Shown one piece after another: positions 446 to 53,785 of a stretch of DNA of 64,000 nt. The notes under the pieces were generated by a model. That model searched no databases and was not told where the DNA came from. It saw nothing but the letters and a program-made list of their open reading frames with translations. The DNA is taken from the NCBI GenBank assembly GCA_030619925.1, contig JAUXAL010000006.1, forward strand, positions 1-64,000. Direction: 5' to 3'. The position numbers were made by a program, and so were the translations under genes. How positions within the stretch are numbered: the stretch's first letter is position 1; each line of letters opens with the position of its first letter. The stretch is from Phycisphaerae bacterium. GTDB taxonomy: Bacteria; Planctomycetota; Phycisphaerae; Sedimentisphaerales; Anaerobacaceae.

Positions 446-508
446 TTCATGGTTATGAGTTCATGGTTCATCGACTATGAACTACGAACAATGAACTACG
501 AACTATAA
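446..508. repeat. Heptanucleotide-period array in the rRNA spacer
   Basis: Nine consecutive 7-mers keep exact phase: TTCATGG, TTATGAG, TTCATGG, TTCATCG, ACTATGA, ACTACGA, ACAATGA, ACTACGA, ACTATAA. The first four read as TTCAT-type units and the last five as their reverse-complement type, so the array inverts near 473. The same unit family (TTCATTG, TTCGTAG) forms the array at 42267-42357. Confidence 0.8.
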
Positions 509-554
509 TGGTGCTTATATTCGCATCTGCATATTTTTTGGGAAATCCGAAGCA

Positions 555-681
555 CTAAATCCTAAATCCTAAACAATATCGAAATTCAAATGTTCAAATG
601 GCTAAAACGTTTGAAATTTTGGGTTTCGGTCATTTGGATTTGTTTAGGATTTAGATATTCGAATTTAGGATTTTTGAATTT
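555..681. repeat. Imperfect inverted repeat (MITE-like), rRNA spacer
   Basis: The left arm opens with CTAAATC, CTAAATC, CTAAACA and the right arm contains TGTTTAGGATTTAG, its near reverse complement, so the AT-rich segment can fold on itself across a centre near 605-625. There is no coding capacity. The structure resembles small non-autonomous palindromic elements; mobility is inferred only from shape. Confidence 0.55.
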
Positions 682-709
682 ATCAGGTTTCTGCCTGATA
701 TAACGATCT

Positions 710-820
710 TCCTGGTGACTATACTGGCGGGGAAACGCCTGATCCCATTCCGAACTCAGAAGCTAAGCCCGTCAGGCCGATGGTAGTCCTTACGGGCGAG
801 AGTAGGTCATCGCCAGGAAT
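710..820 (+). rRNA. rrf: 5S ribosomal RNA
   Basis: A 111-nt segment begins TCCTGGTGACTAT and ends CGCCAGGA, so its ends pair as expected for helix I of 5S rRNA. It contains the conserved CCCATTCCGAACTCAGAAG loop region and the closing GAGAGTAGGTCATCGCC. It lies downstream of 23S in the same direction and is followed directly by a terminator. Confidence 0.95.
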
Positions 821-823
821 TAT

Positions 824-860
824 AAGCCCCGATGGTGAGAATCATCGGGGCTTTCCTTTT
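824..860 (+). terminator. Intrinsic terminator of the rRNA operon
   Basis: An 11-bp stem, AAGCCCCGATG (824-834) paired with CATCGGGGCTT (843-853), has an 8-nt loop and is followed by TTCCTTTT. It lies four bases after 5S rRNA and is the natural rRNA operon terminator. Confidence 0.9.
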
Positions 861-870
861 GCGCCACAGA

Positions 871-891
871 CCCCCAACGTAAAGTTGGGGG
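871..891 (+). repeat. REP hairpin 1 (upstream of RAYT)
   Basis: Stem CCCCCAAC and GTTGGGGG, loop GTAAA, followed by CTAAACTT. It is a direct-orientation copy upstream of the transposase gene. Confidence 0.8.
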
Positions 892-904
892 CTAAACTTT
901 GAAA

Positions 905-925
905 CCCCCAATGTAAAATTGGGGG
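905..925 (+). repeat. REP hairpin 2 (upstream of RAYT)
   Basis: Stem CCCCCAAT and ATTGGGGG, loop GTAAA, followed by CCAAACC. Compared with hairpin 1, the innermost pair changes from C-G to T-A on both sides, which is a compensatory change. Confidence 0.8.
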
Positions 926-976
926 CCAAACCAGATTGAAAGTTGACCAATTGTCAGTAAACATTATCGTCAAAGC

Positions 977-1435: not shown

Positions 1436-1456
1436 CCCTCAGGTTTACCCTGAGGG
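1436..1456 (-). repeat. REP hairpin 3 (downstream of RAYT, inverted)
   Basis: On the minus strand the stem is CCCTCAGG and CCTGAGGG, the loop GTAAA and the tail CTAAC. The stem sequence differs from the other copies but loop and tail are kept, so it is an inverted member of the same family. It could also act as a weak terminator for the RAYT gene. Confidence 0.7.
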
Positions 1457-5407: not shown

Positions 5408-8400
5408 TTACCTGCTTTCAGTCTCCTGCTGGGCCGCGACTTCTTCCGGACTGGCCGAATCCCATACCTTGATCGTTCCGTCCCAACCGCCTGAGGCGAT
5501 CCGCTTGCCATCCGGACTGAACGCTACCGAGAGCACATAAAACTCATGACCACGGAGGGTCATGACTTCTGTGCCGCTGGCCGCGTCCCAGACCTTGACC
5601 GTTTTGTCCCAACTTCCTGAGACAATTCGCTTGCCGTCTGGACTGAACGCTACTGATGAGACCGCGCCGCCATGCCCACGGAGGGTCATCAGTTCGGCCC
5701 CACTGGCCGCGTCCCACACCTTGACAGTCCCATTCCGACAACCCGAAACGATATGCTTGCCGTCCGGACCGAATGCTACCGAGCGCACATAGCCCTCATG
5801 ACCGCGGAGGGTCATCACTTCGTCACCAGTTGATGCGTTCCACACTTTGATAGTTCTGTCCTTGCCACCCGAGACAATGCGCCTGCCGTCCGTACCGAAC
5901 GCTATTGAACTGACCAGTTCCTTTTCCTTGTGCCCTCGGAGGGTTAATAGTTCATCGCCGCTGGTGGCATCCCACACCTTGACAGTATTAGCCCAACTTC
6001 CCGAGGCGATGCGCTTGCCGTCTGGACTAAACGCTACGCACCAGATACTGCTGTCGTGCCCGCGGAGGGTCATCAGTTCGGCCCCACTGGCCGCATCCCA
6101 GACCTTGATTGTTTTGTCCGAACCTCCCGAGACGATGCGCTTGCCGTCCGGACTGAACGCTACGCAACTGACAATCCTATCGTGTCCGCGCAAGGTCATC
6201 AGTTCCTCGCCACTGGCGGCGTCCCACACCTTGACCATTTTGTCGTCGCCGCCCGAGACAATACGTTTGCCGTTCGGACTGAACGCTATCGATCTAGCCA
6301 CCCGCTCGTGTCCGAGGAGGTTCATCACTTCAAAGCTGCGTTCCGCGTCCCACACCTTGACCGTTTCGTCATCACTGGCCGAGACGATGCGCTTGCCGTC
6401 TGGACTGAACGCTACAGACCAGACACAGCTATCATGCGCAAGGAGGGTCATCACTTCGGCGCCCGTTCTTGCGTCCCACACCCTGACCATATTGTCATCG
6501 TCACCCGAAACAATGTGTTTACCGTCAGGGCTGAACGCTACCGAATAGACCCAATCCTTGTGCCCACGGAGGGTCATTAGTTCGGCCCCACTGGCCGCAT
6601 CCCAGACCTTGACCGTTTCGTCATCACTGGCCGAGACGATGCGCTTGCCGTCAGGGCTGAACGCTACCGACTCGACGTCGCCGCGGTGCCCACGCAGGGT
6701 CATCAGTTCGGCCCCGGTTGCCGCATCCCAGACCTTGATAATCTCGTCCCAACTGCCCGAGATGATCCGCTCGCCGTCAAGGCTGAAAGCTACTGACCAG
6801 ACCTCGCCGTCATGCCCACGGAGCGTCATTAGTTCGGCCCCATTGGCCGCATCCCAGACCTTGACCGTTTCGTCATCACTACCCGAAGCGATGCGCCTGC
6901 CGTCCGGACTGAACGCTATCGACTCAACCCATTCCTTGTGTCCACGGAGGGTCATCAGCTCCTCGCCGCTGGCCGCATCCCAGACCTTGATCGTTTTGTC
7001 GTCACTGCCCGAGACGATGCGCTTGCCGTCCGGACTGAACTCTACCGAATTGACCCAACCCTTGTGCCCACGCAGGGTTATCATTTCGGCCCCGGTTGCC
7101 GCATCCCAGACCTTGACTGTTTTGTAACTCCCGGAGACGATGCGCTTGCCATCCGCACTGAACGCTACCGAATAGACAGTAGCTTCATGGCCGCGGAGAG
7201 TCATGAGCGGCTGGTGTAAGATACGCCAGAGGCGATACCATTCCCATGCGCGCAGGTCCTCCGGACACAGCGCCAGCACCTCACGGACACGGCGTATATT
7301 GCCGTCTCGATATGCTATCTCGGCCATAGCAAGGCGATTGAAATAGAGCGCACGGCGGTGGGCTTCGGCTTGCTCCTCGGCCAGTTTACGCTGCTGTTGT
7401 GCGATCTTCTCGGCCTGTTCAGATTCATCACGGGCAGTTACCGCTTCGGCGCGCGCGGCGGCCTCTTTTTCGCGCGCCTGCTCGGCTTGGAAGTACATCG
7501 CAGTAGCGACTATCAGGCCCACCACTATCGCACCTGCCACGACCGCAGCCGTCGTTACTGACGTTCGATTGCGGCGCACAAACTTCCTGACCCGGTACAT
7601 CACCGACTCGGGCCCGGCTAGTAGCGGAGCACCGTTTAAGTAGTTCTGGATTTCATCCGCAAGCTCGGAGGCCGACCGATACCGACGTGCCCGTTCCTTG
7701 CGCATGGCCTTGAGCGGAATCCATTCGAGCTCCTTGTGCAGGCGTTTGGCCAGTGTCGCGACCTCGGTGCGACGGCTTTTGGCGACCTTTTCTGCCTCTT
7801 CGCCGAGGCTCGACAGCCGCGTGCTCGGAAGGGGCGGGTCCTGCTCCCGAATTATTCTTTGAATCTCTGCAAAACCCGCCTGCTCTAATGTTCTTCGGTC
7901 AAACGGTAGTGCCCCAGCCAATAGTTCATAGAGCACCACACCCAGCGAGTAGATGTCTGAGCGGGTATCAATGTCCTGGGCGGTCATCTCCGCCTGCTCA
8001 GGACTCATGTACTCGGGCGTGCCAATCAACTGGCCCTGCTGGGTGAACAGCGTCCGCTCGGTCAAAGGCTGCGTGATGGCCTTGGCCACCCCGAAATCGA
8101 TAATCTTCGGGATAGCTTTCTCACCTTCGATTGACACCAGGATATTCGATGGCTTGATATCGCGGTGTATGATTCCCTTCTGGTGGGCGTGCTGAACCGC
8201 CTCGCATACCTGCAGGAATAGTCTGAGCCGTTCCTCGATGTTGAGCTTCTCCCGGTCGCAGTGCTCGGTGAGGGACACGCCCTTAACGTGTTCCATCACG
8301 AAGTATGGCCGGCCGGCCTCGGTCGTTCCGGCATCGAAGACCTGCTCGATATTGGGATGGTCCAGCAGTGCCAGGGCCTGGCGTTCGGCCTCAAAGCGGG

Positions 8401-8623: not shown

Positions 8624-8734
8624 CGGCTCGCTCCGCGTAAACGCGTCCCGCCCTTGAGCAGGAATTGGGCGAGACTCTATCTCATTCGGCAACATTATAG
8701 CAGCCGACCGGAGTAATGTCGAGATGTTTTAGAG

Positions 8735-11273: not shown

Positions 11274-11344
11274 CCACCAAGGCACCAAGACACGAAGATT
11301 ATAATATATTTTACTTTTGCCTTTGTGCCTTTGTGTCTTCGTGG
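11274..11344. repeat. Heptad-period repeat at the kinase stop
   Basis: Two short 7-nt-phased blocks occur: CCACCAA, GGCACCA, AGACACG (11274-11294) and TTGCCTT, TGTGCCT, TTGTGTC, TTCGTGG (11317-11344). The second runs into the coding end of the kinase gene and encodes its last residues, HEDTKAQRQK. Confidence 0.6.
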
Positions 11345-14043
11345 CTAATCATTCCCGCTAAAAGCCTCTTGAAGCGCGGGTGCTCCCGCAGGGGCTTGTA
11401 GTCCGGATCGAGTCGGATAAGATTCAAATTCATTTCGCTGGGAATGGAGAGCAGCTGTTCCAGCAGATCGAAGGCCCGGTCGTAGTCCCCCAACAGGATA
11501 TAGATGCGCAGTACGCGAACGAGGATCAGCGTCCCCGCCATGGCATCTTTCTCTACAGACTTAAGGGTAGTGGCAATAGCCACTTGCCGAAGGGCGTCGT
11601 CCCGGCGACCCAGCCCGGCATAGCTTTGCCCCAAATAGGCATGATCAAAGAAGTCTTTAGGATCCACGGCGACCCGGTTCTCGTAATCAATACGTGCTGA
11701 GTCATAGTAGGCGGCTGCCTGTTGGGGCCGCCCCATCAACCGGTACAGGTCGGCAAGCCGAAGCTGCCAACTACCGGTTACATCATCATAGGATTGAATC
11801 CTGTCTACCGCTTCCTGGTAGTTGCCCGCGTACGTATCTACCAGAAATTCCCAGCCTCGCAGATCGGCGCCGTGCCGGGCGCCCTGGGCCAGTACCTGCC
11901 GCATCTTTTGAAGATCACCTGATGAGCCTCTGATAGAGGAGAGCTTATGACCGTAGCCAAGCCCGGCTTCCGGCTCCAGTTGGATAGCAAGGTCAGCATA
12001 GTGCTCGGCCTCCCGCCAGCGGCGTAAGAAACCATAGGAAAGGGTTAAATGCCCAAACCTCTCAATATGGCGTGGATCCGACTGCAGGGCCGGCTTGAAG
12101 AAAGAAATAGCTGTTTCCCACTCGCCCAGCCGCCGATGCGCAATTCCTACGGCGCCGAGAATCTCACTATTATTGGGCGCCTTCACCAGGGCCTGCTGGA
12201 AATATTCCAATGCCTGGCGATAGTCCTCTGTCCAGTAGTAGTCATACCCGTGGGCCAGGATTACTTCAGGATGGCCCGGATCAAGGGCCAGGGCATGGTC
12301 CAGGCTCCTTTGTGCCTGTTCCAGGCGTTCAGGTGTTGGATCGGTGCGCCAGAAGGCATAGCTGCGCAAGTGGACCCGGGCCAGGCGGGCCCAGGCCAGA
12401 GCAAAATTGGGGTCCAGCTCCACGGCTTTTGCATACATTTCCACTGAGTTAACCATGATTTCCCGTCGGCTGTAGCCTAGCCATTGACGGTACCAGTAAT
12501 TGTTCCCCTGGAGGTAATAATCATAGGCCTCCATGTTTTCTGTGGGCCTGGACTCCAACGCCCGCCGTTCCGGCTCAAGCAGGGTAATGTCCAGTGCCTG
12601 CGCCACCTGCTCGGCGATGTCGGATTGGACCTGGAAGATGTTGGCCAGAACCGCGTCATAACGGTTAGACCAAAGGTGGGTATCGTCAGTGACCCTGATG
12701 AGCTGGGGCGTGACACGCACTCGACTTGGACCCTCCGACGGTCGGTCCCAGCGGACCGTGCCCTCGAGCACATACTGGACACCCAACTCTTGGCCGATCT
12801 GCCGGATGGTCTTGTTGCTGTTCTTATATTGAATGGCGCTTGTTCGGGAGATGACACCTAACGTACGAATTGCGGAGAGCCGCGACATGATTTCCTCGGT
12901 TATGCCGTCGGCGAAATACTCGTCCTCGGCAGAGCCCAGATTCTCAAACGGCAGAACCACCAGCCGTATTTTCTTTGAAGGAGGTTGAGTTGGCTTTTTT
13001 GAAATAAACCACACAGCGATACCGAATAGGACAATGATGACAGCCGCACCAACAATCATCGCCGTTCTTCGTAACTTCGATTTGGCAGCGGCCTCTGACT
13101 TAAACGAAATGCTCGAGGGGGCGGCCGCTGGTATGTTTAGCATTTCACGGATTTCCATACCGACATCCCTGATATGCTGAAGCCGCCGCCACGGGTCTTT
13201 CTCTAAGCAGCGCTGCAGCAGAGCCTGGATGTTTGGCGGCGTAGTCCAGGGCAGCACCTGCCAGTTGGGCTCTGTTTGCAGAACATTGGCCAGTGTGTCG
13301 GAAACTGTTTCGCCGTGGAAGGGAACCTTGCCAGTTAGCATCTCATACAGCACGCAGCCGAACGACCAAATATCGCTGCGCTTATCGGCCGGCTTACCGC
13401 GGGCCTGCTCAGGACTCATATAGGCGGGCGTACCGATGATCTTGCCAGGCTCAGTGGTGGTGCTTAGCTTCTCTGAGGGTTCACCGCCGACCGTCTTGGC
13501 CAGGCCGAAGTCCAGCACCTTGACCCTGCCTTCCGGCGTGATTTTGATGTTGCCGGGCTTCAGGTCCCGGTGGATAACATCATGCTCATGCGCCGCCGCC
13601 ACCGCCTCAGCTATTTGCAAAGCTATCGTTAATGCTTCTTCCAGCTTAAGCGGTCCCTTCGTTATTTGTTCAGCCAGCGTCTGGCCGGGGACATATTCGA
13701 GGACCAGATAGCCCGCCCCCTCAGCCACTTCGAGCTCTTCGTGGATGGTGGCAATGTTGGGGTGATTCAATGAAGCCAGAAGTCGGGCCTCACGCTTCCA
13801 GCGCGACAGGGCCATGCGGTTGCCCATTACCTCAGCCGGCAGGCTTTTGATAGCGACGGGCCGGTCAAGCTTGGTGTCGTGGGCCAGATAAACCACCCCA
13901 ATCCCGCCACGGCCCAGCTCTCGCTCGATACGGAATGGACCGATTTGGCTACCCGGCCCTAACACCAGGTCGCTAAAGCTGGTCGTGGGACGCAGCTCCT
14001 CTTCACCTGGCCGCCTATTGTTGTCATGCTCAATCTCGCTCAT
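11311..14043 (-). CDS. Membrane Ser/Thr protein kinase with TolB-like and TPR domains
   Basis: The protein has 910 residues. The Hanks kinase domain (about 35-300) has GRGGIGVVY, AIKSL, HRDLKPGN (near 158), DFGLAK and SPEQARG. A membrane helix lies at about 330-350. A TolB/FlgO-like domain follows (RLVVLPFENLG, FADGITEEI, YVLEGTVRW), then many TPR motifs (about 530-880; for example NPNNSEILGAVGIAHRRLGE-like units). This architecture is common in planctomycetes and acidobacteria and suggests a sensor kinase with a protein-binding tail. GGAG lies before the ATG. The final residues are encoded by a 7-nt-period repeat, so the native C-terminus has probably been extended by it. Confidence 0.93.
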   Translation of the reverse strand: MSEIEHDNNRRPGEEELRPTTSFSDLVLGPGSQIGPFRIERELGRGGIGVVYLAHDTKLDRPVAIKSLPAEVMGNRMALSRWKREARLLASLNHPNIATIHEELEVAEGAGYLVLEYVPGQTLAEQITKGPLKLEEALTIALQIAEAVAAAHEHDVIHRDLKPGNIKITPEGRVKVLDFGLAKTVGGEPSEKLSTTTEPGKIIGTPAYMSPEQARGKPADKRSDIWSFGCVLYEMLTGKVPFHGETVSDTLANVLQTEPNWQVLPWTTPPNIQALLQRCLEKDPWRRLQHIRDVGMEIREMLNIPAAAPSSISFKSEAAAKSKLRRTAMIVGAAVIIVLFGIAVWFISKKPTQPPSKKIRLVVLPFENLGSAEDEYFADGITEEIMSRLSAIRTLGVISRTSAIQYKNSNKTIRQIGQELGVQYVLEGTVRWDRPSEGPSRVRVTPQLIRVTDDTHLWSNRYDAVLANIFQVQSDIAEQVAQALDITLLEPERRALESRPTENMEAYDYYLQGNNYWYRQWLGYSRREIMVNSVEMYAKAVELDPNFALAWARLARVHLRSYAFWRTDPTPERLEQAQRSLDHALALDPGHPEVILAHGYDYYWTEDYRQALEYFQQALVKAPNNSEILGAVGIAHRRLGEWETAISFFKPALQSDPRHIERFGHLTLSYGFLRRWREAEHYADLAIQLEPEAGLGYGHKLSSIRGSSGDLQKMRQVLAQGARHGADLRGWEFLVDTYAGNYQEAVDRIQSYDDVTGSWQLRLADLYRLMGRPQQAAAYYDSARIDYENRVAVDPKDFFDHAYLGQSYAGLGRRDDALRQVAIATTLKSVEKDAMAGTLILVRVLRIYILLGDYDRAFDLLEQLLSIPSEMNLNLIRLDPDYKPLREHPRFKRLLAGMISHEDTKAQRQK

Positions 14044-22688: not shown

Positions 22689-23077
22689 TGCCAAATCTCC
22701 AACCACGAAAGTCTAAAGCGTAAAATGCAAAACTACAGCCCAAAAATCAAAAGTTTTGAATCTTCAATTGCGATTCTTACCTCTCAGATTTCAGTTTTCA
22801 TTTTAATTTGCCATAATCTACCTGAAGCCATTCAAAAGGCAAGAAAAAAACAGCGAATCCGGCATTTTGGAGTTTGAGACGGCTGTTGCGGGGATTTCGA
22901 ACTGCGGCCGGAGTTGCGCTGGGGTCAGAACGGAGGCGAGCGCGACGCGGAGCGGGCATGAGCCAGGAGCAGGCAGTCTTTGGAATTCTGAAGCCCGAAT
23001 TCCTCGGCGCTGTGGTGCGATACTTTAGTTTTTGCTCTTGCCTTCGGGACAGCTCGCTGCTATATGTTTGAATTACT
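22689..23077. other. Divergent promoter region between aroA' and aroDE
   Basis: About 390 nt separate the two divergent shikimate genes, so both promoters must lie here. The aroA' side is AT-rich and the centre is GC-rich. I cannot assign specific promoter boxes, and no open frame in it looks real. Confidence 0.5.
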
Positions 23078-25060: not shown

Positions 25061-25095
25061 TAGTGACGAATATCGAATGCCGAACAAGGAACAAC
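25061..25095. repeat. Heptad array upstream of mntA
   Basis: 7-mers in phase: TAGTGAC, GAATATC, GAATGCC, GAACAAG, GAACAAC. The order GAATATC, GAAT, GAACAAG, GAAC is the same as in the array adjoining the four-helix-bundle gene (39321-39355, opposite strand), so the two arrays are related copies. The 280-nt gap it sits in holds no supported gene. Confidence 0.7.
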
Positions 25096-27237: not shown

Positions 27238-28371
27238 GTGGCAGTACCGGATTGGATTTGGTTTGTCTTTGTTTTTGCGTTTGGGTGCTGTATAGGCAGT
27301 TTTCTGAATGTTGTCATCTATCGCTTACCTCGCGACAAGTCTTTAATAACTCCGCCTTCAGCTTGTCCGGCGTGCGGTAGGCACATTCGCTTTTATGACA
27401 ATATACCACTTATTTCGTGGCTGCTTTTGGGGCGAAAGTGCAGGCATTGCAAAGCGGCAATCTCGCCGCGTTATTTTGCTGTCGAGCTGCTGACGGGCTC
27501 GGTTTTCCTCGGGCTTTTTATTCTGTATTTTCAAATCAATCCGCGAGACGGTGCCCAATCGTTTGCCGGTGGCGGCTGGTTTATTTATCTTCTTCACATT
27601 ACTATGTTAGCAGGTTTCATTGCCGCTTCAGCAATTGACCTGGAATATTGGGTCATTCCACTGTCTATTTGCTGGGTCGTTACCGCGGTTGGGTTGATCG
27701 CCTCGGCGGTCGGTGTTTATGTAATTGACCCTGCTCTGATTCGTGCGTATTGCCTTTTGCCAAGCGCCTCGGCTGATACGGGCGCCCTGGCCGTCGGGGC
27801 GATGATAGGGTTGGTTATATCCTGGGTGCTGCTGGCAACCGGTTTGGTTAAAAGAAGTTACGAACCAGAAGACGGAGGACAGGAGACAGAGGACAGAAGT
27901 GAGCAGAAGGTCAACCATCGTCTGGAGAGCTGCAGAGAAGCCATTTTTTTACTGCCGGTCATCATCTGCTCGGCCGCGGCTTGTTGGATTATCAGAGAAC
28001 GCACCTGGTGGGTAGATTTTTCGCAACATGCTGTCGTTGCAGGACTTCTGGGCAGTCTGTGGGGTTACTTTGTGGGTTGCGGAGTTGTCTGGGGCATCCG
28101 TATCTTTGGCACATTAGCCTTTGGACGGGAGGCAATGGGGCTGGGCGATGTGCATCTAATGGGTGCTGCAGGGGCGGTAATAGGGCCGCTTTTTGTCGTT
28201 GTGGCGTTTTTTGTCGCGCCGTTCTTCGGGCTGGCCTGGGCGGGATTCCAAATGTTTTTTAAAAAAATTCGACAAATTCCCTACGGTCCTTTCTTGTCTT
28301 TGGGTATACTTGTTGTTATGATTTTACACGACTGGATTCGTGGTTATCTGAGTTTTATGTTTTGGCGTTGA
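27238..28371 (+). CDS. pilD: Prepilin peptidase (type IV leader peptidase, A24)
   Basis: This 377-residue membrane aspartic protease cleaves and N-methylates type IV pilin-like preproteins. The N-terminal methylase part has GSFLNVVIYRLPRD and the two CxxC pairs in CPACG and CRHCK. The catalytic aspartates are in ASAIDLEYWVIP and MGLGDVHLMGA. About eight membrane helices are visible. The GTG at 27238 has AAAGGAA just upstream and is preferred to the TTG at 27220. A loop in the middle (EDGGQETEDRSEQ) is encoded by a 7-nt-period repeat at 27868-27902 and is not part of the family core. Confidence 0.92.
   Translation: MAVPDWIWFVFVFAFGCCIGSFLNVVIYRLPRDKSLITPPSACPACGRHIRFYDNIPLISWLLLGRKCRHCKAAISPRYFAVELLTGSVFLGLFILYFQINPRDGAQSFAGGGWFIYLLHITMLAGFIAASAIDLEYWVIPLSICWVVTAVGLIASAVGVYVIDPALIRAYCLLPSASADTGALAVGAMIGLVISWVLLATGLVKRSYEPEDGGQETEDRSEQKVNHRLESCREAIFLLPVIICSAAACWIIRERTWWVDFSQHAVVAGLLGSLWGYFVGCGVVWGIRIFGTLAFGREAMGLGDVHLMGAAGAVIGPLFVVVAFFVAPFFGLAWAGFQMFFKKIRQIPYGPFLSLGILVVMILHDWIRGYLSFMFWR
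27868..27902. repeat. Heptad array inside pilD
   Basis: GAAGACG, GAGGACA, GGAGACA, GAGGACA, GAAGTGA in exact 7-nt phase. It is translated as a charged loop between membrane helices of the prepilin peptidase. Confidence 0.75.
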
Positions 28372-29109: not shown

Positions 29110-31791
29110 CTATTGACTTTTTACAAATGTTGTGGTTCTTATCGTGCCGTCTTTGCCGAGGCAGACCGTAACGGCTCCAAGGCCGGCTGTATAGAATGAC
29201 TTTGTCTTATTCGGGTCAGAGGGCCCGGGACCCGGGGCACGATTCTTGCTTTCGTATCGGCTTCGGCCGCAACTGCATATCAAAATATCCGCATCAAGAT
29301 TTTCGAGGAAGTCAGGGTCTGCCGTTTTGACTGAGCCGTGGTGAGGGACAACGACAACATCGGCCCTCAAGTCGGGATTTAGCCGAAGAAGCTCTGTTTG
29401 TGCAAACTCTTCGATGTCGGAGCATAAAAGTATTTTGGTGCCGGCAAATTCTATCAATGAAACCAGCGATTTGTCATTGTCACCCAATTGCGCATCCTGA
29501 GATATTTGTTCGCTCGGCCAGAGTATTTTAATCTTAGCAGCACTGTTTAGATTCAAATCTTTTAAGTTTTTTATTTCAAAACCCTGTTCACTTAGTGATT
29601 CGTTGAGAAATTTTACCGTGGTCTGCTGGTCTGCCTTGTCAAAAAAGGCATCATTGGCATAAATGGCGTCGACTTTGAAATATTCGACGACCTCAGGTAT
29701 TCCATTTATATGGTCTATGTCATTATGGCTTATGATAATGGCGTCGATTTTGCCTGTTCCGCTGTAATCTAAAAATGGTGCGATAATTCGTCTGCCGATA
29801 TCACTTTTGTGCAGCGAGCCTGCGTCAAACAAAACGTTGGCTTTGCCCGGAAGCTGGGCCAGTATTGCCTGGCCGTGGCCTACATCCAGACAGGTGAGGA
29901 CTAAATTGTCCCGATGTGTCCGTTGCCATTTCGCAGTGCCAAGAAAAATAATTGTTGCTAAAAGCATCGCTGTGCAGATTACTCTTTTTATCAGAGGACG
30001 CCGAAAATAAGCGAAGCCGGCAAAAAGAATCAGGCAGTAATACAAAATTACCGGTGCAAGTGGCACGTGGCCTATTAGTATTTGTGAAATATCCAAATGT
30101 GCGATGAGCTTTACGAGCCAAATAAAACAGTCTGACAGAAGGGCGGCTGTAGCGCCTAAAACAGCACTCAATGTCGGCAGCAAAAAAAATAGGATTATCT
30201 TCAAGAATCCGATGGTCAAAATCAAGGCCACCAGTGGAAAGACGACCACCGTCCACATACTTGTAAGGGGGTTAATCGTGTAAAAGTGATAAAGCAAAAT
30301 CCCGGCACCGCCCAGCCATGCGGCAAGGCCCACACAGAATAATCTAGATAAATATGGTACGGGCCTTGAAATTATGCGGAAAAACGGTTTTGCTCTTAGG
30401 GCTTTCTTACGCCAGGGCAAACTCGTTATTTTTTCGTATAGAAAGAAGTGGATTCGCCCTTCAAAAAGTAAAATTCCGAGCACTGTTCCGAAGGAGAGCT
30501 GCCAGCCGGCCTCGAATAACTGCGTCGGCCGTATGAGTAAAAGAATTATTGCTGCTAACGAAAGTGCATTGATGGGGTTGGAGTGTCGGCGAAAGAAAAA
30601 TGATACGCAGAAAACGCAACATATAATAGCTGCCCTTAACGTAGGTGCCCTCGGCGGGACAATCAATAAGAAAATAACTATCGCAATTATACAAACAACC
30701 GCACGGGCAGGTTTCATTAACCCTGCTGTTTTGCATAGCCACCAGATAATCCCTATCAAAATGCCCAGGTGCAGTCCGGACAGACTAATAAAGTGCAGCA
30801 GACCCGTTTTGCGAAAGGCCTCGTACGTGTCACTGTCAATATGCCCTCTATAGCCCAACAACAGCGCCTCCAGCAGGCCTCTGCTTGGCTCGGCCGGTGA
30901 CAGATCACCCAATAACGCCCGTGTGGCTGTTTGCCTGAGCCTGCTTTTTATTTTTGTAAAGGCACCCGACCACCTGTCATTCTGAGCGAAGCGAAGAATT
31001 TCGATACCGTCCCGCGATTTGATAGATGCCGCGAGAAAGACATTCTTGCGCGCCAGATATTTAGCTGTATCGAATTGTCCGGGGTTGGTCGGCGGTTTGA
31101 ATCTATCCAGCCAGCAGTATGCCTGTATATGGTCGCCGGCCTTTAAATCCAGCACCGGCTCGTCAACCTGCACTCGAACAGTGCCGGCTGCCTTTGCCCA
31201 GCCGTTGCGCCGCAGCGGACCTTCAGCAACAGTTTTCACTTCGCTAACCTTGAGGTAGAAGCTGCTTGTTGGATCGGTCGGCTTAAACCTACTGAATTTC
31301 CACTGTCGATTTTCGTTGATATACGGCTCGGTGATAATCAGGCCGCGAATTGTTGCCAGTTTCGGTTCGCCGGTAACGAAATTTCGGATATCGTTGGGCT
31401 TTGGCTGATGAAAACCGGTCAGCCGAATCGCACCGAGACATACGAAGCAGGCCAGGGCTAAGTACGCTGTGGCGTAGTGGTAATCGGTGATTGGTAAATG
31501 GTAATTGGTGAATGGTAATTGGTTATTGGTAGAGTAAAGCTGTTGGATGATGAAGAAGAAAATAGTTGCTGCTGTAAGCAGAGCAAGCAGTATCAGCCAG
31601 AGCCAGACAAATCGTGACTCGTCGCCCGTCGTTCGTGACCCGATCAATGCATGTTGTATCAGAATCCCGATGATTAAACCGACTGCGACAAAAACAAGAG
31701 GGCATGTGCTTATGATTTGTCTGTGAAGATTTGCGGGGCCTGTGGTGAGCTGTTTATCAATCAGAGCTAATTTTCGCTGTATGTTGTCCAT
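29110..31791 (-). CDS. comEC: ComEC/Rec2 DNA uptake channel protein
   Basis: This protein of about 893 residues has N-terminal membrane helices, a DUF4131 region, the competence channel domain (LLHFISLSGLHLGILIG, FLLIVPPRAPTLRAAI) and a C-terminal metallo-beta-lactamase-like domain (LDVGHGQAILAQ, IISHNDIDHINGI, VVVPHHGS). It would carry single-stranded DNA across the inner membrane. The ATG at 31791 is chosen over a TTG at 31821; neither has a clear ribosome site. Three repeats are translated within the N-terminal half: heptad arrays at 31479-31534 and 31613-31647, and a REP-like word at 30976 giving EILRFAQND. All are in loops or linkers. Confidence 0.93.
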   Translation of the reverse strand: MDNIQRKLALIDKQLTTGPANLHRQIISTCPLVFVAVGLIIGILIQHALIGSRTTGDESRFVWLWLILLALLTAATIFFFIIQQLYSTNNQLPFTNYHLPITDYHYATAYLALACFVCLGAIRLTGFHQPKPNDIRNFVTGEPKLATIRGLIITEPYINENRQWKFSRFKPTDPTSSFYLKVSEVKTVAEGPLRRNGWAKAAGTVRVQVDEPVLDLKAGDHIQAYCWLDRFKPPTNPGQFDTAKYLARKNVFLAASIKSRDGIEILRFAQNDRWSGAFTKIKSRLRQTATRALLGDLSPAEPSRGLLEALLLGYRGHIDSDTYEAFRKTGLLHFISLSGLHLGILIGIIWWLCKTAGLMKPARAVVCIIAIVIFLLIVPPRAPTLRAAIICCVFCVSFFFRRHSNPINALSLAAIILLLIRPTQLFEAGWQLSFGTVLGILLFEGRIHFFLYEKITSLPWRKKALRAKPFFRIISRPVPYLSRLFCVGLAAWLGGAGILLYHFYTINPLTSMWTVVVFPLVALILTIGFLKIILFFLLPTLSAVLGATAALLSDCFIWLVKLIAHLDISQILIGHVPLAPVILYYCLILFAGFAYFRRPLIKRVICTAMLLATIIFLGTAKWQRTHRDNLVLTCLDVGHGQAILAQLPGKANVLFDAGSLHKSDIGRRIIAPFLDYSGTGKIDAIIISHNDIDHINGIPEVVEYFKVDAIYANDAFFDKADQQTTVKFLNESLSEQGFEIKNLKDLNLNSAAKIKILWPSEQISQDAQLGDNDKSLVSLIEFAGTKILLCSDIEEFAQTELLRLNPDLRADVVVVPHHGSVKTADPDFLENLDADILICSCGRSRYESKNRAPGPGPSDPNKTKSFYTAGLGAVTVCLGKDGTIRTTTFVKSQ
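30976..31002. repeat. REP-like word inside comEC
   Basis: GTCATTCTGAGCGAAGCG and the following bases encode, on the minus strand, the peptide EILRFAQNDR. This word is a known kind of dispersed repeat in many bacteria. A related GGAATGAC end occurs at 36820-36827 and in the element that disrupts hicA. Confidence 0.7.
31479..31534. repeat. Heptad array inside comEC (8 units)
   Basis: GGTAATC, GGTGATT, GGTAAAT, GGTAATT, GGTGAAT, GGTAATT, GGTTATT, GGTAGAG in perfect 7-nt phase. It is translated on the minus strand as an Asn/Pro/Tyr/Leu/Thr-rich linker. Confidence 0.85.
31613..31647. repeat. Heptad array inside comEC (second)
   Basis: CGTGACT, CGTCGCC, CGTCGTT, CGTGACC, CGATCAA in phase. On the minus strand it encodes SRTTGDESR. 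Its units resemble those at 37476-37517. Confidence 0.7.
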
Positions 31792-31799
31792 GGCAAAAC

Positions 31800-31834
31800 A
31801 GACTACAGACTCAAGAGGCAAGACTCAAGTGCAA
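31800..31834. repeat. Heptad array just upstream of comEC
   Basis: AGACTAC, AGACTCA, AGAGGCA, AGACTCA, AGTGCAA in phase. It ends 8 nt from the comEC start codon and takes the place where a ribosome site would lie. Confidence 0.7.
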
Positions 31835-37366: not shown

Positions 37367-37475
37367 GCTTTCTCTCTTTTTACTATGTTATTGGCCCCTG
37401 CTTGTAAAATCAGGGCTTTCGGCTGTAGCATATCGTGGAGTGTACCTTCCCGTCGAACCGACGTCAATCATATTT

Positions 37476-37517
37476 CGTCGCTCGTCGCTCGTAACTCAAT
37501 ACCTCGTGTCATGGGTC
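37476..37517. repeat. Heptad array at the ketosynthase stop
   Basis: CGTCGCT, CGTCGCT, CGTAACT are exact, then CAATACC, TCGTGTC and ATGGGTC continue the 7-nt phase up to the ketosynthase stop codon (37516). The reverse complement reads as ACGAG/CGACGAG units. Confidence 0.65.
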
Positions 37518-38865: not shown

Positions 38866-38900
38866 GAATATCCAACAAAGAATATCGAATGTCGAAGTTA
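38866..38900. repeat. Heptad array between S23 gene and ketosynthase
   Basis: GAATATC, CAACAAA, GAATATC, GAATGTC, GAAGTTA in phase. Together with 39321-39355 it flanks the four-helix-bundle gene with the same unit in inverted orientation. Confidence 0.7.
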
Positions 38901-38918: not shown

Positions 38919-39320
38919 CTACTTTCTGCGTTTGTTTTTCTCCGCTGTTTTTACACTTGTCACAAAAATTGAGATTAACTCATCGCATTCAGCTATAAGC
39001 AATTCTATCTCTCTCGTAGATTTTGATAAGCTTTTACGCTGGATAATCTTTAGCCATACTCTTGTCTCACGCAGTTCTTTAAGGACTATTTTAATTTTAT
39101 GAATAAAATCATTGCGGGACTCAGCACTTTGCGCCTCGCCATAATTAGGCGCCGGAGCTGTCCCACATCGTACTAACTGACCTCCTATATGATTTCCCGC
39201 ACGTGTATTAGGTAAAGCCTCAACTATGTTGATAATACGAATTGCAAAGTCAATCAGGCGCTCTTCAAGATCATATTTCCTGTTTTTACTTTTCTTTGTT
39301 TTGCCATTTTCCTTCATCAT
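38919..39320 (-). CDS. Four-helix-bundle protein (23S rRNA intervening-sequence family)
   Basis: This 133-residue protein belongs to the S23/four-helix-bundle family, first known from insertions in 23S rRNA of Leptospira and later seen widely as solitary genes. Visible family text: YDLEERLIDFAIRIINIVEALP, GGQLVRCGTAPAPNYGEAQ, FIHKIKIVLKELRETRVWL. The function is unknown. It interrupts the acyl-synthesis cluster and has 7-nt-period arrays on both sides. The ATG at 39320 directly abuts one array, whose GGAAC may serve as ribosome site. The last residues are lysine/arginine-rich. Confidence 0.88.
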   Translation of the reverse strand: MMKENGKTKKSKNRKYDLEERLIDFAIRIINIVEALPNTRAGNHIGGQLVRCGTAPAPNYGEAQSAESRNDFIHKIKIVLKELRETRVWLKIIQRKSLSKSTREIELLIAECDELISIFVTSVKTAEKNKRRK

Positions 39321-39355
39321 TCGAAGTTCCTTGTTCGATATTCGATATTCAATCT
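39321..39355. repeat. Heptad array abutting the S23 start codon
   Basis: TCGAAGT, TCCTTGT, TCGATAT, TCGATAT, TCAATCT in phase, beginning at the base next to the start codon of the minus-strand gene. Confidence 0.75.
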
Positions 39356-39375
39356 TTTATCCTTTCCCTTCATAA

Positions 39376-39410
39376 TTCCGAATTCCTTGTTCGATATTCG
39401 ATATTCAATC
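39376..39410. repeat. Heptad array overlapping the second ketosynthase stop
   Basis: TTCCGAA, TTCCTTG, TTCGATA, TTCGATA, TTCAATC in phase; nearly the same text as 39321-39355. The TGA stop of the upstream ketosynthase (39405-39407) lies inside it. Confidence 0.75.
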
Positions 39411-40718
39411 CGGCCCTTTTAGTACCACAGCGGCTGTTTGTCCGCCATAAGTGTAACTGCAGCATAGTGCGTAACGAATATCGGTCTCTTGCGGCTGTTT
39501 TACAATATTCAAATTGCAGCCGTCAGCTTTTCTGTCGCAGTTTTTCGCAGCAGGTATCCTACCGTCAGCCATTGCACAAACTGCGGCGACCAGGTCAATC
39601 GCTCCACTTGCTGCGCCTGTGTTGCTTAGCATACTTTTGGTCGGCCAGACGGCTGTCTTTGCCGCTGCATCGCCAAGGGCGGCCTGGATTGCCTTTGCCT
39701 CAGCCAGGTCGTCGGCAGCTATCCCTGTTCCGTGCGGGATAACCAGGCCCAAATCCTCCGGCTCTATCTGAGCATCGGCCATTGCCTTTTCTATCGCTAT
39801 TTGTAACCCGTAGCCATCCGGCTCGAGATGTTCGTATGCCGGATTGATATTATTGCTTTGCCCGAGGCCGACGACCTCGGCGTAAATTTTTGCACCTCGC
39901 CTTTGGGCATTTTCGAGATTTTCGAGTATCACTATGCCGGCGGCTTCACCGAAAACCGAGCCTTTGGCATCGGCGTCAAAAGGCCTGCAGGCAGAAGCAG
40001 GCTCATCATTGTTTTCGCTGGTCACTCTTTTAAGCAGGCACTGGCGAATCATAATCATTGGATTGACCTTTGCTTCTGCGCCACCGGCCAGAGCGATGTC
40101 AGTGTCGCCGCGGGCGATAATCTGAGCTGCTTCAGCTATCGCCAGATGCGCAGATGCTTCAGCGCAGGTGATAGAGTTGCTCGGTCCCTGGATGTCGTGA
40201 ATAATGCCTATATGGCAGGCGAGCATATTGGGCAGATATTTCAATAACCACAAAGGCGTAACCAGCTCAAGGCCATCTTTGCCCCACTTACGAGTGTCAA
40301 ACTTACCATCGGTAGCGCTTGCCGCCACCGCGGGAGCCAGCTCAACCAGATCACAGCTTATAAAGCCTGCACCCAGATTGATTGCTACACGCTCCGGGTT
40401 GATATTGACGTTTTCCGGGTCGATACCCTTTGTAACCAGACCGCTGTGGACGAGGGCTTCGTTTGCCGCTATGACCGCCAGTTCGATGTCTCTGGACATC
40501 AGTTTAATGGCTTTGCGATGGGCCCTTGGCACATATTTTTGTATTTTATAATCGGGGACCTGGCCGGCTAATTTGCAGCTAAAGCCGACGGGGTCAAATG
40601 CTGTAATTGTGCCTATCCCACAGTCGCCGGCACAGAGACCGGCCCACATATCGGTTACAGTTAATCCAAGTGGGGTTATCGCACCAAGGCCGGTTATTAC
40701 TACGCGAGCCGAACTCAC
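39405..40718 (-). CDS. Divergent beta-ketoacyl synthase with Cys-His-Asn site
   Basis: This 437-residue FabF-like thiolase-fold protein keeps the nucleophile C185 (NSITCAEAS) and the first histidine H329 (IPHGTGI). Where the second catalytic histidine should be (KSxxGHxxGA), it has KSMLSNTGAASG, placing N366. That gives a Cys-His-Asn triad as in FabH-type enzymes, although the fold is FabF-like. It is neither a typical chain-length factor (which loses the Cys) nor a normal KAS II. It starts with GTG, preceded by GGAGG, and its start overlaps the FabZ stop (TAGTG) by one base. It probably pairs with the FabF-like enzyme downstream. Confidence 0.88.
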   Translation of the reverse strand: MSSARVVITGLGAITPLGLTVTDMWAGLCAGDCGIGTITAFDPVGFSCKLAGQVPDYKIQKYVPRAHRKAIKLMSRDIELAVIAANEALVHSGLVTKGIDPENVNINPERVAINLGAGFISCDLVELAPAVAASATDGKFDTRKWGKDGLELVTPLWLLKYLPNMLACHIGIIHDIQGPSNSITCAEASAHLAIAEAAQIIARGDTDIALAGGAEAKVNPMIMIRQCLLKRVTSENNDEPASACRPFDADAKGSVFGEAAGIVILENLENAQRRGAKIYAEVVGLGQSNNINPAYEHLEPDGYGLQIAIEKAMADAQIEPEDLGLVIPHGTGIAADDLAEAKAIQAALGDAAAKTAVWPTKSMLSNTGAASGAIDLVAAVCAMADGRIPAAKNCDRKADGCNLNIVKQPQETDIRYALCCSYTYGGQTAAVVLKGPD

Positions 40719-42266: not shown

Positions 42267-42357
42267 GAATTAGTTCATAGTTCATTGTTCGTAGTTCATT
42301 GTTCGTAGTTCATTGTTCATAGTTCATTGTTCGTAGTTCATTGTTCGTAGTTCTCGT
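42267..42357. repeat. Heptad array abutting the acyl-cluster start (13 units)
   Basis: From 42274, 7-mers TTCATAG, TTCATTG, TTCGTAG, TTCATTG, TTCGTAG, TTCATTG, TTCATAG, TTCATTG, TTCGTAG, TTCATTG, TTCGTAG, TTCTCGT run without a phase break; GAATTAG at 42267 precedes. The first base adjoins the start codon of the dehydratase. The units equal those in the rRNA spacer. Confidence 0.9.
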
Positions 42358-49080: not shown

Positions 49081-49108
49081 GAGAGACACGAAACACGAGA
49101 CGCAAGAT
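49081..49108. repeat. Heptad array before the P-type ATPase start
   Basis: GAGAGAC, ACGAAAC, ACGAGAC, GCAAGAT in phase; the ATG follows after one base. It has related text to the array at 51040. Confidence 0.65.
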
Positions 49109-51029: not shown

Positions 51030-51039
51030 TGCATAATGA

Positions 51040-51137
51040 GAGATACGAGACACGCTTCACGCAATACGTATCACGCAATACGAGATACGAGACACGCTTC
51101 ACGCAATACGCATCACGCAATACGAGATACGAGATAT
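51040..51137. repeat. Heptad array overlapping the ABC ATPase start (14 units)
   Basis: GAGATAC, GAGACAC, GCTTCAC, GCAATAC, GTATCAC, GCAATAC are repeated as a 42-nt block twice (GCATCAC in the second), then GAGATAC, GAGATAT. The ATG at 51136 uses the last bases of the final unit. It fills the gap after the P-type ATPase gene. Confidence 0.9.
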
Positions 51138-52383
51138 GGAGTACGCTGTTGAAACTTTTTCTTTGACGAAGATTTTTTCCGACTGGTGGGGTCGGGCCAA
51201 AGTTTATGCTGTGGACGACCTGAATTTGCAGGTTCGGTACAATGAGGTATTCGGCCTTTTAGGGCCCAACGGCTCCGGCAAAACAACCACCCTGAAGTTA
51301 CTGCTCGGCTTGCTTTATCCGACAAAGGGCAGATCTGTCGTTTTTGGTGGTGACGGTGCCGACCCTAAAATCAGCGCTCGAATCGGCTTTTTGCCCGAGG
51401 AGTCCTATCTCTACAGGTATCTGAACGCCCGCGAAACCCTGGATTTCTACGGCAGATTATTCGGCTTACGTGCTAAAGTGCGCAAAATGCGTATCGAAGC
51501 CCTGCTCGATATGGTCGGACTGAAGGCCGTTGCAAACAGAGCCGTTGGGACATATTCGAAAGGTATGGCGCGCAGAATCGGCCTGGCACAGGCGCTGATA
51601 AACGACCCGGACTTGCTCGTGTTGGATGAGCCGACAACCGGCCTTGACCCTATCGGAACAAGGCAGATAAAGGATTTAATCCTGATGCTCGCACAACGCG
51701 GCAAGACAATCCTGCTCTGCAGTCACTTGCTGGCGGATGTCGAAGATGTATGCGATAGAATCGCAATCCTCTACGGCGGCAGAATCCAGACCCAGGGCCG
51801 GGTTAGAGACCTTTTACAGCAGACGAGTAAGAAGCAAATTACCACCGATGCCATAAGCGATAGCGCCATTGAGAAGATAAAGCAGGTGATTGAGGACGAA
51901 GATGCTGACTGTGTGGTAACTTCTCCGATGGATAAGCTCGAAACATTTTTCATTAAAACCGTTGCAGCTGCCCAACAGCAGGCCCAGCCCACGAGCGGTG
52001 CAGTCAGCACTACCAGAATCGGCGGTTTTCTCGCACCGCAGGCCCCTGTCGAGAGTATACTTGATAAACTTGCCTCTGCACCGATATCGCGGGATACATC
52101 GCTGGAGACTCCAGCAACAGAGCAGGTCGTTCCGGCTGAAAGTTCGGAGCCCAAACCCGATGAACAGTTGCTCAGTGAGCTAACTGAGCCGGCTGAACCG
52201 CTCGGGACCAAACCTGTCGTTAAAGATGAAAAAGTCAAAACAGAACCGGTTGAACCCCAAGGATCTGGGCAAGAACAAATCAAAAAAAGCATTTTAGACC
52301 AGCTCACAGGTCACCGGCGGCCTCAAAATGCCGATAGTGAACAAACGGATAAATCGCAGGCAGGAGACTCGGGCGATGCATAG
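51136..52383 (+). CDS. ABC transporter ATP-binding protein with long C-terminal tail
   Basis: This 415-residue protein has an ATPase domain (about 1-225): Walker A GPNGSGKTTT, signature YSKGMARRIG, Walker B LLVLDEPTTGLD and the H-loop CSHLLAD. A tail of about 170 residues, rich in Glu, Pro, Ser and Lys, follows and is not part of the family core. The start codon is formed by a heptad array, with no Shine-Dalgarno. The stop overlaps the permease start (ATGCATAG), so both form one exporter, perhaps with the permease at 43547. Confidence 0.92.
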   Translation: MEYAVETFSLTKIFSDWWGRAKVYAVDDLNLQVRYNEVFGLLGPNGSGKTTTLKLLLGLLYPTKGRSVVFGGDGADPKISARIGFLPEESYLYRYLNARETLDFYGRLFGLRAKVRKMRIEALLDMVGLKAVANRAVGTYSKGMARRIGLAQALINDPDLLVLDEPTTGLDPIGTRQIKDLILMLAQRGKTILLCSHLLADVEDVCDRIAILYGGRIQTQGRVRDLLQQTSKKQITTDAISDSAIEKIKQVIEDEDADCVVTSPMDKLETFFIKTVAAAQQQAQPTSGAVSTTRIGGFLAPQAPVESILDKLASAPISRDTSLETPATEQVVPAESSEPKPDEQLLSELTEPAEPLGTKPVVKDEKVKTEPVEPQGSGQEQIKKSILDQLTGHRRPQNADSEQTDKSQAGDSGDA

Positions 52384-53743
52384 TATCTGGGCTGTCGCCA
52401 CAAATACTATAAAGCAGGCTTTGCGGATGAAAGTAGCCGTTGTTTTTACAATCCTGCTGATTGTCATGCTTGTGGTTATGGGTGTTTCGACAACAGGCGA
52501 CGGGACCTTGAAAGGCAGGCTGCAAACCTTTGTAAGCTACGGTCTTTCGCTCACCAGTCTTTTGCTCTGTTTGCTCACAATCATAGTCTCAATTTATTCG
52601 GTAACCAGCGACATCGAGCAGAGACAAATATATACTGTTGTCACCAAGCCCATTCGTCGTTTTCAGTTTCTTCTCGGCAAGTTGCTGGGCGTAATATTAT
52701 TGGATGTGGCTCTGCTCTGTTTGTTTTCAGCTATAATATATACAATTACCATTTACACGCCGGAGTTTTCTAACGCAACTGAAACTGAGCGCCTCCAGGC
52801 CGATAATGAGTTTTATACCGCCCGGGCCAGCATAATGCCTCCCGAAGCCGATGTTACCGAGGAGGTTGATGAGGCCTACGGTCAATTAGAAAGAAGTGGC
52901 CAACTGCCTGAAGATATGTCGCGCGATGAAATCATTGCCGAGCTTACCAGCCGGAAAAAACTTGCGAAACGAGCTGCTGCGGTTGGTTACGAATTGGTTT
53001 GGGAATTCGACAACGTCAAACCTGTCGGCCCGGACGAGAGTTTGTTTATAAGATTCAAATATGATGTTGCGGTAACCCCTCCTGACTCGCAAGTTTACAG
53101 CCGATGGTTCGCAGGTGACTACCGACAGATTAAGTATGGTACGAAAATTGAAAACCGCATATACACTTTTGACCGCAAGGACCCCGTTCGAACATTCCGT
53201 GAGATAGAAGTCCCCGCCGACGCTGTGGCGAAGGACGGCTATCTGGCTGTCGGATTTCTTAATGACCCTCGATTTAACAATACCTCTGTAATCTTTCCGC
53301 TCGAGGACGGTCTGGAGGTGCTTTATAAGGCCGATACCTTCACCGGCAATTTTATGAGAGCTGTTCTTTTGATTCTGTTTCGTTTGATTTTCCTGGCTTG
53401 TTTGGGCATATTAGCTTCGACTTTCCTCTCGTTCCCTGTGGCCATACTGCTCTGTCTTGTGCTTTTCTTTACGGCAAGTTTCAGCGGTTTTGTTATCGAA
53501 TCGTTTGACTACCTGAGTGAAAACATTGGTGTGTTCTATTCTTACACCTTTAAATGGATGATTCGGCTGTTGCCGCAGTTTGATAAATTTAGCCCTGCGA
53601 AATTCCTGGTCCCTGCACGATTATTGGAGTGGTCTTTATTGGCCGAATGCGCTGCTCTTATGGTTTGTATTAAAGGGCTTTTGCTGTTGGTTTTCGCCTT
53701 GGTCATTTTCAGTTATCGAGAAATCGCGAGAATTATAATTTAA
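52376..53743 (+). CDS. ABC-2 type transporter permease with large periplasmic domain
   Basis: This 455-residue membrane protein starts with a helix (VAVVFTILLIVMLVVMG) and two more up to residue 135, then a soluble part of about 190 residues (MPPEADVTEEVDEAYG to PLEDGLEVLYK) and four to five C-terminal helices. VTSDIEQRQIYTVVTKPIRR is the coupling segment. The start at 52376 has AGGAG at 9 nt and overlaps the ATPase stop. The periplasmic domain is unlike anything I can name. Confidence 0.88.
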   Translation: MHSIWAVATNTIKQALRMKVAVVFTILLIVMLVVMGVSTTGDGTLKGRLQTFVSYGLSLTSLLLCLLTIIVSIYSVTSDIEQRQIYTVVTKPIRRFQFLLGKLLGVILLDVALLCLFSAIIYTITIYTPEFSNATETERLQADNEFYTARASIMPPEADVTEEVDEAYGQLERSGQLPEDMSRDEIIAELTSRKKLAKRAAAVGYELVWEFDNVKPVGPDESLFIRFKYDVAVTPPDSQVYSRWFAGDYRQIKYGTKIENRIYTFDRKDPVRTFREIEVPADAVAKDGYLAVGFLNDPRFNNTSVIFPLEDGLEVLYKADTFTGNFMRAVLLILFRLIFLACLGILASTFLSFPVAILLCLVLFFTASFSGFVIESFDYLSENIGVFYSYTFKWMIRLLPQFDKFSPAKFLVPARLLEWSLLAECAALMVCIKGLLLLVFALVIFSYREIARIII

Positions 53744-53744
53744 A

Positions 53745-53785
53745 ATCGAGCATCGAGCACTTTTTGTCGTTATCGAGTATTGAGA
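53745..53785. repeat. Short heptad words before the 597-residue protein start
   Basis: ATCGAGC, ATCGAGC (53745-53758) and ATCGAGT, ATTGAGA (53772-53785). The second pair ends at the base before the ATG at 53786. The two blocks are one base out of phase with each other. Confidence 0.5.

Follow-up and report, generated by a model that had tools for sequence, protein, structure and literature searches.

Short tandem arrays of degenerate seven-nucleotide units (heptads), with a different unit at each locus, are scattered through a 64,000-nucleotide (nt) stretch of DNA from a Phycisphaerae bacterium of the order Sedimentisphaerales (contig JAUXAL010000006.1, positions 1 to 64,000; hereafter the window, meaning this whole stretch). 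We consider it probable that these locus-specific heptads are the arms and tombstones of small elements built around a gene of the S23p family, and that the intervening sequences of 23S rRNA are one case of such elements. Direct support comes from the architecture of the elements, the enrichment of arrays beside S23p genes, the pairing and co-evolution of the arms, signs that the protein is under purifying selection, the comparison of occupied with empty orthologous sites, and a correlation between array density and S23p number. To our knowledge, the degenerate heptanucleotide repeats of cyanobacteria, Xanthomonas and other bacteria, and the S23p intervening sequences of rRNA, have each gone unexplained since about 1990.

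S23p elements and their arms

On the minus strand of the window, positions 38919..39320 encode a 133-residue four-helix-bundle protein of the S23p family (23S_rRNA_IVP; PF05635, E 7.4e-12; TIGR02436, E 5.3e-23), and the arrays at 38866 and 39321/39376 bracket this gene in inverted orientation. The upstream arm (39318..39411, minus strand; score 28 for self-matching at a distance of 7 nt, or lag 7, p 0.003) holds GAATATC/GAACAAG heptads, present twice, and starts where the ketoacyl synthase gene upstream has its stop codon; the downstream arm (38866..38896, minus strand; lag-7 p 0.037) is a short run of complementary heptads, GAATATC GAATGTC on the plus strand. These terminal inverted repeats can form a stem, and their pairing score of 36 (locus L008), against a median of 16 for mismatched arms, exceeds that of 99.4% of mismatched pairs. 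The element sits between two ketoacyl synthase genes, not in 23S rRNA. It is one of nine S23p genes in 4.0 Mb of this genome, of which, by a numeric test, six have arrays on both sides, two on a single side and L006 on neither; by eye, arm units match within a locus and differ among loci, pairing CAGAAGA with TCTTCTG, TCTCGAT with ATCGAGT, and TTGACTA with TAGTCAA. Each element has its own unit, which is why the loci look different.

The original prediction, made from the letters of the window, had described strictly 7-nt periodicity in units that differ from locus to locus, and the comparison of lag 7 with neighbouring lags and with dinucleotide shuffles that it proposed revealed a local excess. 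Window-wide autocorrelation gave no signal at lag 7 (0.2503) despite the arrays, so the periodicity is local: requiring at least 18 of 28 positions to match at a given lag, a scan of the whole window found 11 lag-7 loci against a mean of 0.37 (maximum 2) in 30 local dinucleotide shuffles, with 0-3 loci at each of lags 4-6, 8-13 and 15, and seven at lag 14. All 16 predicted coordinates reached p <=0.037 at lag 7 or 8 in single-site tests (300 shuffles per 140-nt stretch), where p is a guide only because the sites had been chosen by eye. Those at 25061, 31613, 38866, 49081 and 53745 are short arrays (score 8-10) below the whole-window threshold, and the scan added arrays at 538-591, 643-677 and 22774-22810 that had been overlooked. 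Heptads beyond chance, and a period that stays constant while the unit varies, were therefore borne out; a strict step of seven was not, since the array at 11274/11317 has 8-nt units (lag-8 p 0.003; lag-7 p 0.07) and 8-nt arrays belong to the same phenomenon. A larger sample of the genome, 437 kb made up of the window and 20 stretches from a fixed contig list and scanned without shuffles at a threshold of 19 of 28, held 76 lag-7 arrays, 54 of them mostly non-coding by a crude caller of open reading frames (ORFs). Other lags gave none (4-5), 12 (6), 8 (8), 23 (9; one non-coding), 14 (12; 0 non-coding) and 44 (14; 29 non-coding). Tandem degenerate 7-nt units thus sit in intergenic DNA of window and genome sample alike. 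Fold-back, a unit followed by its reverse complement, rose above the highest shuffled value in 33 of the 76 arrays, and the genome listing, inspected by eye and uncounted, shows locus-specific units among which CAGAAGA, CTCGATA, TATTGAC and CGTATAT types nevertheless turn up repeatedly.

Across bacteria, at least one 7- or 8-nt array lies beside the gene in 141 of 151 non-duplicate S23p loci, and on both sides in 108, so that 249 of 302 flanks carry one. Seven duplicates (L249, L251, L252, L254, L255, L256, L259) were left out of these counts and of those on AG phase, placement, G.U mismatches and intergenic controls, and three truncated loci (L015, L026, L028) out of the 300-nt comparison. 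Among 38 loci of the same order, namely the nine own genes and 29 from relatives (best match per genome), the lag-7 test is passed by 28 upstream and 24 downstream flanks and the lag-8 test by five and three, with 0.2 of 76 passing in lag-7 shuffles; when same-order flanks were taken from ORF edges, 53 of 75 held an array. For 80 named loci, the best of at least 588 confirmed S23p matches and leaning to the main S23p clade, the figures are 52 and 44 at lag 7, 21 and 18 at lag 8, and about 1.5 of 160 in shuffles. Arrays occur in all 19 title-based groups of this named set (13 of them single loci, one unassigned), which does not support a planctomycete peculiarity. In eight genomes 29 of 30 S23p loci, listed from 52 matches, passed the array test. 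Ten of 32 S23p-matching plasmid records comprised nine with both arms and one with a single arm; nine are cyanobacterial, with arrays on both sides of the S23p gene in eight and on one side in the ninth. In the plasmids of Anabaena sp. 90 and Pseudanabaena galeata (L143, L144, ~1100-1600) the arrayed S23p gene, with units that differ between the two, lies between cas6 and cas4. Rfam placed only one of 13 other scanned loci in 23S rRNA, an Azospirillum plasmid element (L148) with heptad arms on both sides. Two loci (L033, L036, ~1240-1335) have the S23p gene just 3' of a tRNA gene and failed the array test on both sides.

How strong this enrichment appears depends on the control. Random 220-nt windows in the same loci hold a lag-7 array in 47 of 1424 cases against 148 of 236 S23p flanks, a contrast flattered by control windows that are mostly coding. 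The intergenic control is more demanding: a lag-7 or lag-8 array was found in 28 of 101 other spacers (at least 40 nt) of S23p loci and, for this genome, in 55 of 196 spacers, a set that includes a few next to S23p genes. Given this background of about 28%, S23p flanks are enriched roughly three-fold over spacers, far below their enrichment over coding DNA, and what most distinguishes them from ordinary spacers is the matched inverted pair. Own arms pair with a median score of 35.5 against 16 for mismatched arms in same-order loci, and 36.5 against 17 in the 80 named loci, and 49 of 50 loci in which both arms are clear have the same period in each.

Arms have a median length of about five units (mode 4-5) and a common design. 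After register rotation, period-7 units share a core of T/C, A (0.72) and G (0.92) with four free positions, and the reverse complement of the downstream arm yields the same core as the upstream arm. With all S23p arms pooled, a fraction of 0.66-0.82 of the units carry AG in phase and 0.16-0.21 carry CT, so the arms have a polarity with respect to the gene. Several units of the window's own genome hold CGA or TGA instead, which makes AG a tendency and no rule. Placement is tight: in 138 loci (13 more, with no flank or neighbouring ORF, were dropped) arms start a median of 3 nt past the upstream ORF and stop a median of 2 nt short of the next, and both neighbours are co-directional with the S23p gene in 112.

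Occupied and empty sites

The window site was read in 30 loci, our own and 29 from relatives. In 18 of them (G018 not counted) the ketoacyl synthase genes lie 0-42 nt apart with no S23p, and a full-length S23p match is present in six (G000, G003, G004, G007, G012, G020). With the window protein, those of the five relatives share 69-79% identity and the nearest of the other S23p compared 33-40%, which points to a single old occupation of the site. One of these, G020, has retained the gene with a unit apparently altered in both arms. Among the remainder, G009 has heptads and a weak match covering residues 3-23 (E 0.05), G019 a weak 17-residue C-terminal match (E 0.03), G018 heptads only, G031 a different hairpin, G025 a short array and G035 54 nt. 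The pieces in G009 and G019, weak singly but rightly placed, are likely remnants, and on that reading gene-less arrays would be element scars.

A second site was followed in 61 Flavobacterium genomes, of which 18 full-length-element loci were compared; L318 (which comes from the L297 genome), L298 (whose gene is degraded), L310 (with other content) and an N-only spacer were excluded. Here the arms co-evolve, with own pairing of 35.8 against 24.9 among the 18 orthologues (permutation p 2e-4). Compared in four pairs of loci, the upstream arm is always more diverged than the core and the downstream arm is so in three; the upstream arm of one Flavobacterium has changed by a whole unit. The protein is under purifying selection, with a median dN/dS of 0.168 from the 79 pairs, out of 153, whose dS was under 1.5 (the ORF of L295 has just 57 codons). 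Eighteen assessable gene-less spacers at this site include 11 with a significant lag-7 array and 11 with significant fold-back; by eye their units differ from those of the elements, and together with their period of 7 this means that they are not simple remnants. In L297 and L308 a different long inverted repeat, of CTCTCCAAAGGAGAGGG type, stands where others hold the S23p element.

Proposed mechanism and competing explanations

As we reconstruct it, an element consists of an array, typically of 4-6 units of 7 or 8 nt, an S23p/IVP four-helix-bundle gene and a complementary array, together filling an intergenic spacer from about the stop codon of one gene to about the start codon of the next, mostly in the sense of the operon. 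Its arms have a common period, match and change jointly, with in-phase AG (mostly YAG) on the gene-side strand, and after deletion of the gene they, or parts of them, would persist as solo arrays. Each of the solved S23p relatives, 2gsc and 2rld, comprises five chains, and Xanthomonas S23p is a toroidal homopentamer according to PMC4990558; five-chain relatives and about five AG-phased units per arm suggest one unit per subunit. S23p may bind the single strand of an arm through AG, and such binding to a ring would fix both the 7-8 nt step and the arm of about five units, much as in the trp RNA-binding attenuation protein (TRAP), with a spacing of its own. Hairpin-templated copying and whole-unit slippage would keep the arms alike, and presence and absence at sites suggests that the element moves. 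The slippage with a 7-nt step that was originally proposed survives in part. Whole units are gained and lost, as in the Flavobacterium arm and in Coxiella, whose strains carry two or three GACAGAT heptamers 5' of the S23p gene (PMC4990558), so slippage may contribute to turnover, and the step is also 8 nt. As for an enzyme adding heptamers, no such polymerase or reverse transcriptase appeared among the 20 Pfam-scanned of 84 listed ORFs of the window, and a genome-wide search was not made. A reverse transcriptase next to the gene would be the mark of a diversity-generating retroelement with Avd, and none of these 20 ORFs is one. On the further possibility that the arrays reduce to one ordinary repeat family, no single repeat sequence accounts for them, and one element family would explain a good part.

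More tentatively, these elements may form a pan-bacterial selfish or regulatory class whose pentameric S23p rings read registers of 7 or 8 nt, one AG per subunit, with the same protein also acting in trans on gene-less arrays. If so, protein geometry, and not sequence, would set the repeat period, and the heptanucleotide repeats of bacteria would form a single system with the intervening sequences of 23S rRNA. The link would give the repeats a partner gene and supply the orphan S23p family with a candidate ligand whose register is predicted; it would also caution annotators that element scars may make up many operon spacers.

Several observations weigh against the S23p-element interpretation. 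Ten of the 151 S23p loci have no array on either side, and the ~28% of spacers that hold arrays without S23p are a high background. Solo arrays far outnumber S23p arms (76 in 437 kb against nine genes in 4.0 Mb), and their status as scars is indicated at one site, by weak matches (E 0.03 and 0.05). At the Flavobacterium site the gene-less hairpins have period 7 and other units, and the occupied loci period 8. No copies with common arms at two sites were found by BLAST among 37 loci compared, a set that does not hold every copy; without fresh copies of this kind, mobility is unproven. The arm-length distribution has a tail reaching 26 units. Period-7 motif information does exceed the maximum of a position-permuting null (2.54 against 2.07), and at period 8 the downstream motif exceeds the null maximum as well, but the period-8 upstream motif does not; the null fits had 8 restarts against 30 for the observed data. 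Among arm mismatches G.U is not above A.C (176 against 192); the Flavobacterium arms have 19 against 41, a tilt also present in the mismatched control. Period clusters only loosely on the protein tree (16 changes against 22 shuffled), and the idea that the protein clade sets the period was dropped for that weakness. Finally, the supporting correlation of array density with the number of S23p genes per Mb has its limits. It was measured over 23 genomes of the order, sampled at fixed positions over 16-437 kb each (rho 0.75, p 4e-5, against 0.23, p 0.30, at control lags), and it ignores shared ancestry and includes S23p arms inside the sampled stretches. Density is 0-3 arrays per 100 kb in five genomes lacking an S23p match, of which G001 still has three arrays in 99 kb, and 9-36 in seven with at least 1.5 S23p per Mb.

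The competitor that survives best, though we regard it as unlikely, puts the arrays first: slippage or template switching would make spacer hairpins, and S23p would insert in their loops, the arms being its target, as intervening sequences sit in rRNA helices. The arrays in 28/101 and 55/196 spacers fit this, as do the gene-less Flavobacterium hairpins with other units (11/18 by lag 7, 11/18 by fold-back) and the fact that S23p genes from different sites match one another in BLAST over roughly the gene alone. At the window site, however, 18 of 30 loci have only 0-42 nt, too short for a hairpin pair, and arrays there are found mostly in loci that have the gene or likely pieces of it, G031 and perhaps G025, with other units, excepted. 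Density that follows S23p number, and arms whose motif and orientation to the gene are common across groups, also speak against pre-existing hairpins.

That the arms are RNA stems for processing of operon transcripts by RNase III, like the intervening sequences of 23S rRNA, seems quite improbable to us. The Coxiella element is excised by RNase III (PMC4990558), the arms pair and co-evolve, and S23p is mostly operon-sense; yet processing requires neither a 7/8-nt period nor an AG phase, and the lack of a G.U signal speaks against RNA-stem selection, making DNA-level arm copying or single-strand binding likelier. We give very little credence to a third account, in which the arrays are binding sites for a post-transcriptional host regulator of Csp, S1 or CsrA type and S23p is merely one target. 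Arrays do adjoin start codons, and such a role was proposed for the TAACTGA repeats of Beggiatoaceae (MacGregor 2015, PMC4679880), but here the unit is locus-specific and matched arrays flank one gene family in 108/151 loci. Ordinary heptanucleotide microsatellites arising by undirected slippage, with the S23p link due to a common intergenic context, would suit the whole-unit changes and the arrays in more than a quarter of spacers, but are hardly credible against 249/302 S23p flanks versus ~28% of spacers, inverted matching arms and a common AG phase.

Other arrays of the window and known systems

The remaining arrays of the window are listed without a strand. Two gene-less heptad hairpins occupy the 23S-5S spacer of an rRNA operon (446-682), in which Rfam ends 23S at 417 and places 5S at 711-818: one at 446..505 (fold-back 23 against a highest shuffled mean of 19.3; single-site test) and a second, of CTAAATC / GATTTAG type, at 538..682 (fold-back 36; window scan). 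The octad hairpin CACCAAGG / CCTTTGTG (11275..11346, lag-8 p 0.003) overlaps the 3' end of ORF 11311-14043. Short arrays lie at 25067..25094 (CGAATAT/CGAATGC/CGAACAA, lag-7 p 0.007), 31612..31636 (CGTCGTT type, p 0.007), 49083..49107 (ACGAGAC, in the spacer separating a Band-7 gene from a P-type ATPase gene, p 0.003) and 53733..53759 (ATCGAGC, spanning a gene end and its 36-nt spacer, p 0.007). Some arrays appear to lie in genes: a CAGAAGA-type array at 27862-27907 (heptads 27868..27906; scan and single-site test) falls between the two domains of a prepilin peptidase ORF (Pfam A24_N 21-101, A24 273-341), and a ComEC-like ORF carries TGGTAAT heptads in its N-terminal part (31479..31530, score 25, p 0.003) and AGACTCA heptads at its start (31798..31829, window scan and single-site test). 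CGTCGCT heptads (37475..37497, scan and single-site test) stand directly 3' of the downstream ketoacyl synthase gene. A long array of about 12 alternating GTTCGTA/GTTCATT heptads (42271..42353, score 42, p 0.003) lies just 5' of a FabA-like gene, and heptads with a 42-nt higher-order repeat (51040..51136, score 34, p 0.003) fill the spacer between P-type ATPase and ABC transporter genes. Repetition of another kind, ~13.7 tandem 126-nt repeats (5450-7177), is found inside minus-strand ORF 5408-8695 and is by eye WD40-like, behind a kinase domain.

The window also holds, at 977-1435, an IS200-type transposase gene resembling REP-associated tyrosine transposases (RAYTs; its match to the REP_Tyr_transpos model is below cut-off), adjoined by two G/C hairpins of CCCCCAACG...GTTGGGGG type (866-1435) that resemble repetitive extragenic palindromes (REPs). 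RAYT was rejected as partner of the arrays, with one array in 44 flanks by match edges (22 of 30 loci, some partial matches) and one in 40 by ORF edges (20 loci). REPs and bacterial interspersed mosaic elements with RAYT do resemble the S23p element in combining small intergenic hairpins with one small gene; they differ in that RAYT flanks are almost without heptads, and REP hairpins form one sequence family per genome.

No paper found in searches of the open PMC literature links heptanucleotide repeats with S23p intervening sequences. The terms 'S23' and 'four helix' are absent from the main texts of the heptamer-repeat reports PMC4679880, PMC4692102 and PMC2700814, and PMC8700078 and PMC10910872, which contain four-helix-bundle or IVP terms, have no bearing on arrays. 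Intergenic heptamers like ours include the short tandemly repeated repetitive (STRR) sequences of cyanobacteria, GGGAATC of Xanthomonas, GGGGAYT of Nostoc and TAACTGA of Beggiatoaceae. In cyanobacterial STRRs one or a few units are common genome-wide. TRAP, for its part, is a ring that binds regularly spaced (G/U)AG repeats whose number is near its subunit count; its fold is unrelated to that of S23p and its spacing is 5-6 nt. The regularly phased AG of S23p arms recalls TRAP sites, if S23p indeed binds them as the analogy suggests, and the arms differ in their 7-8 nt spacing and inverted pairs. Xanthomonas heptamers occur partly in convergent pairs (PMC4692102).

Close in architecture are the 23S rRNA intervening sequences with an S23p ORF, such as those of Coxiella, Leptospira and Azospirillum, where, as here, the S23p gene lies between terminal inverted repeats. 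Unlike them, the window element sits between protein genes, and the elements described here have locus-specific heptad or octad arms, occur in many bacterial groups and are accompanied by gene-less arrays. With the GACAGAT heptamers of Coxiella and the heptad arms of Azospirillum, the rRNA intervening sequences nevertheless appear to fall in the same class.

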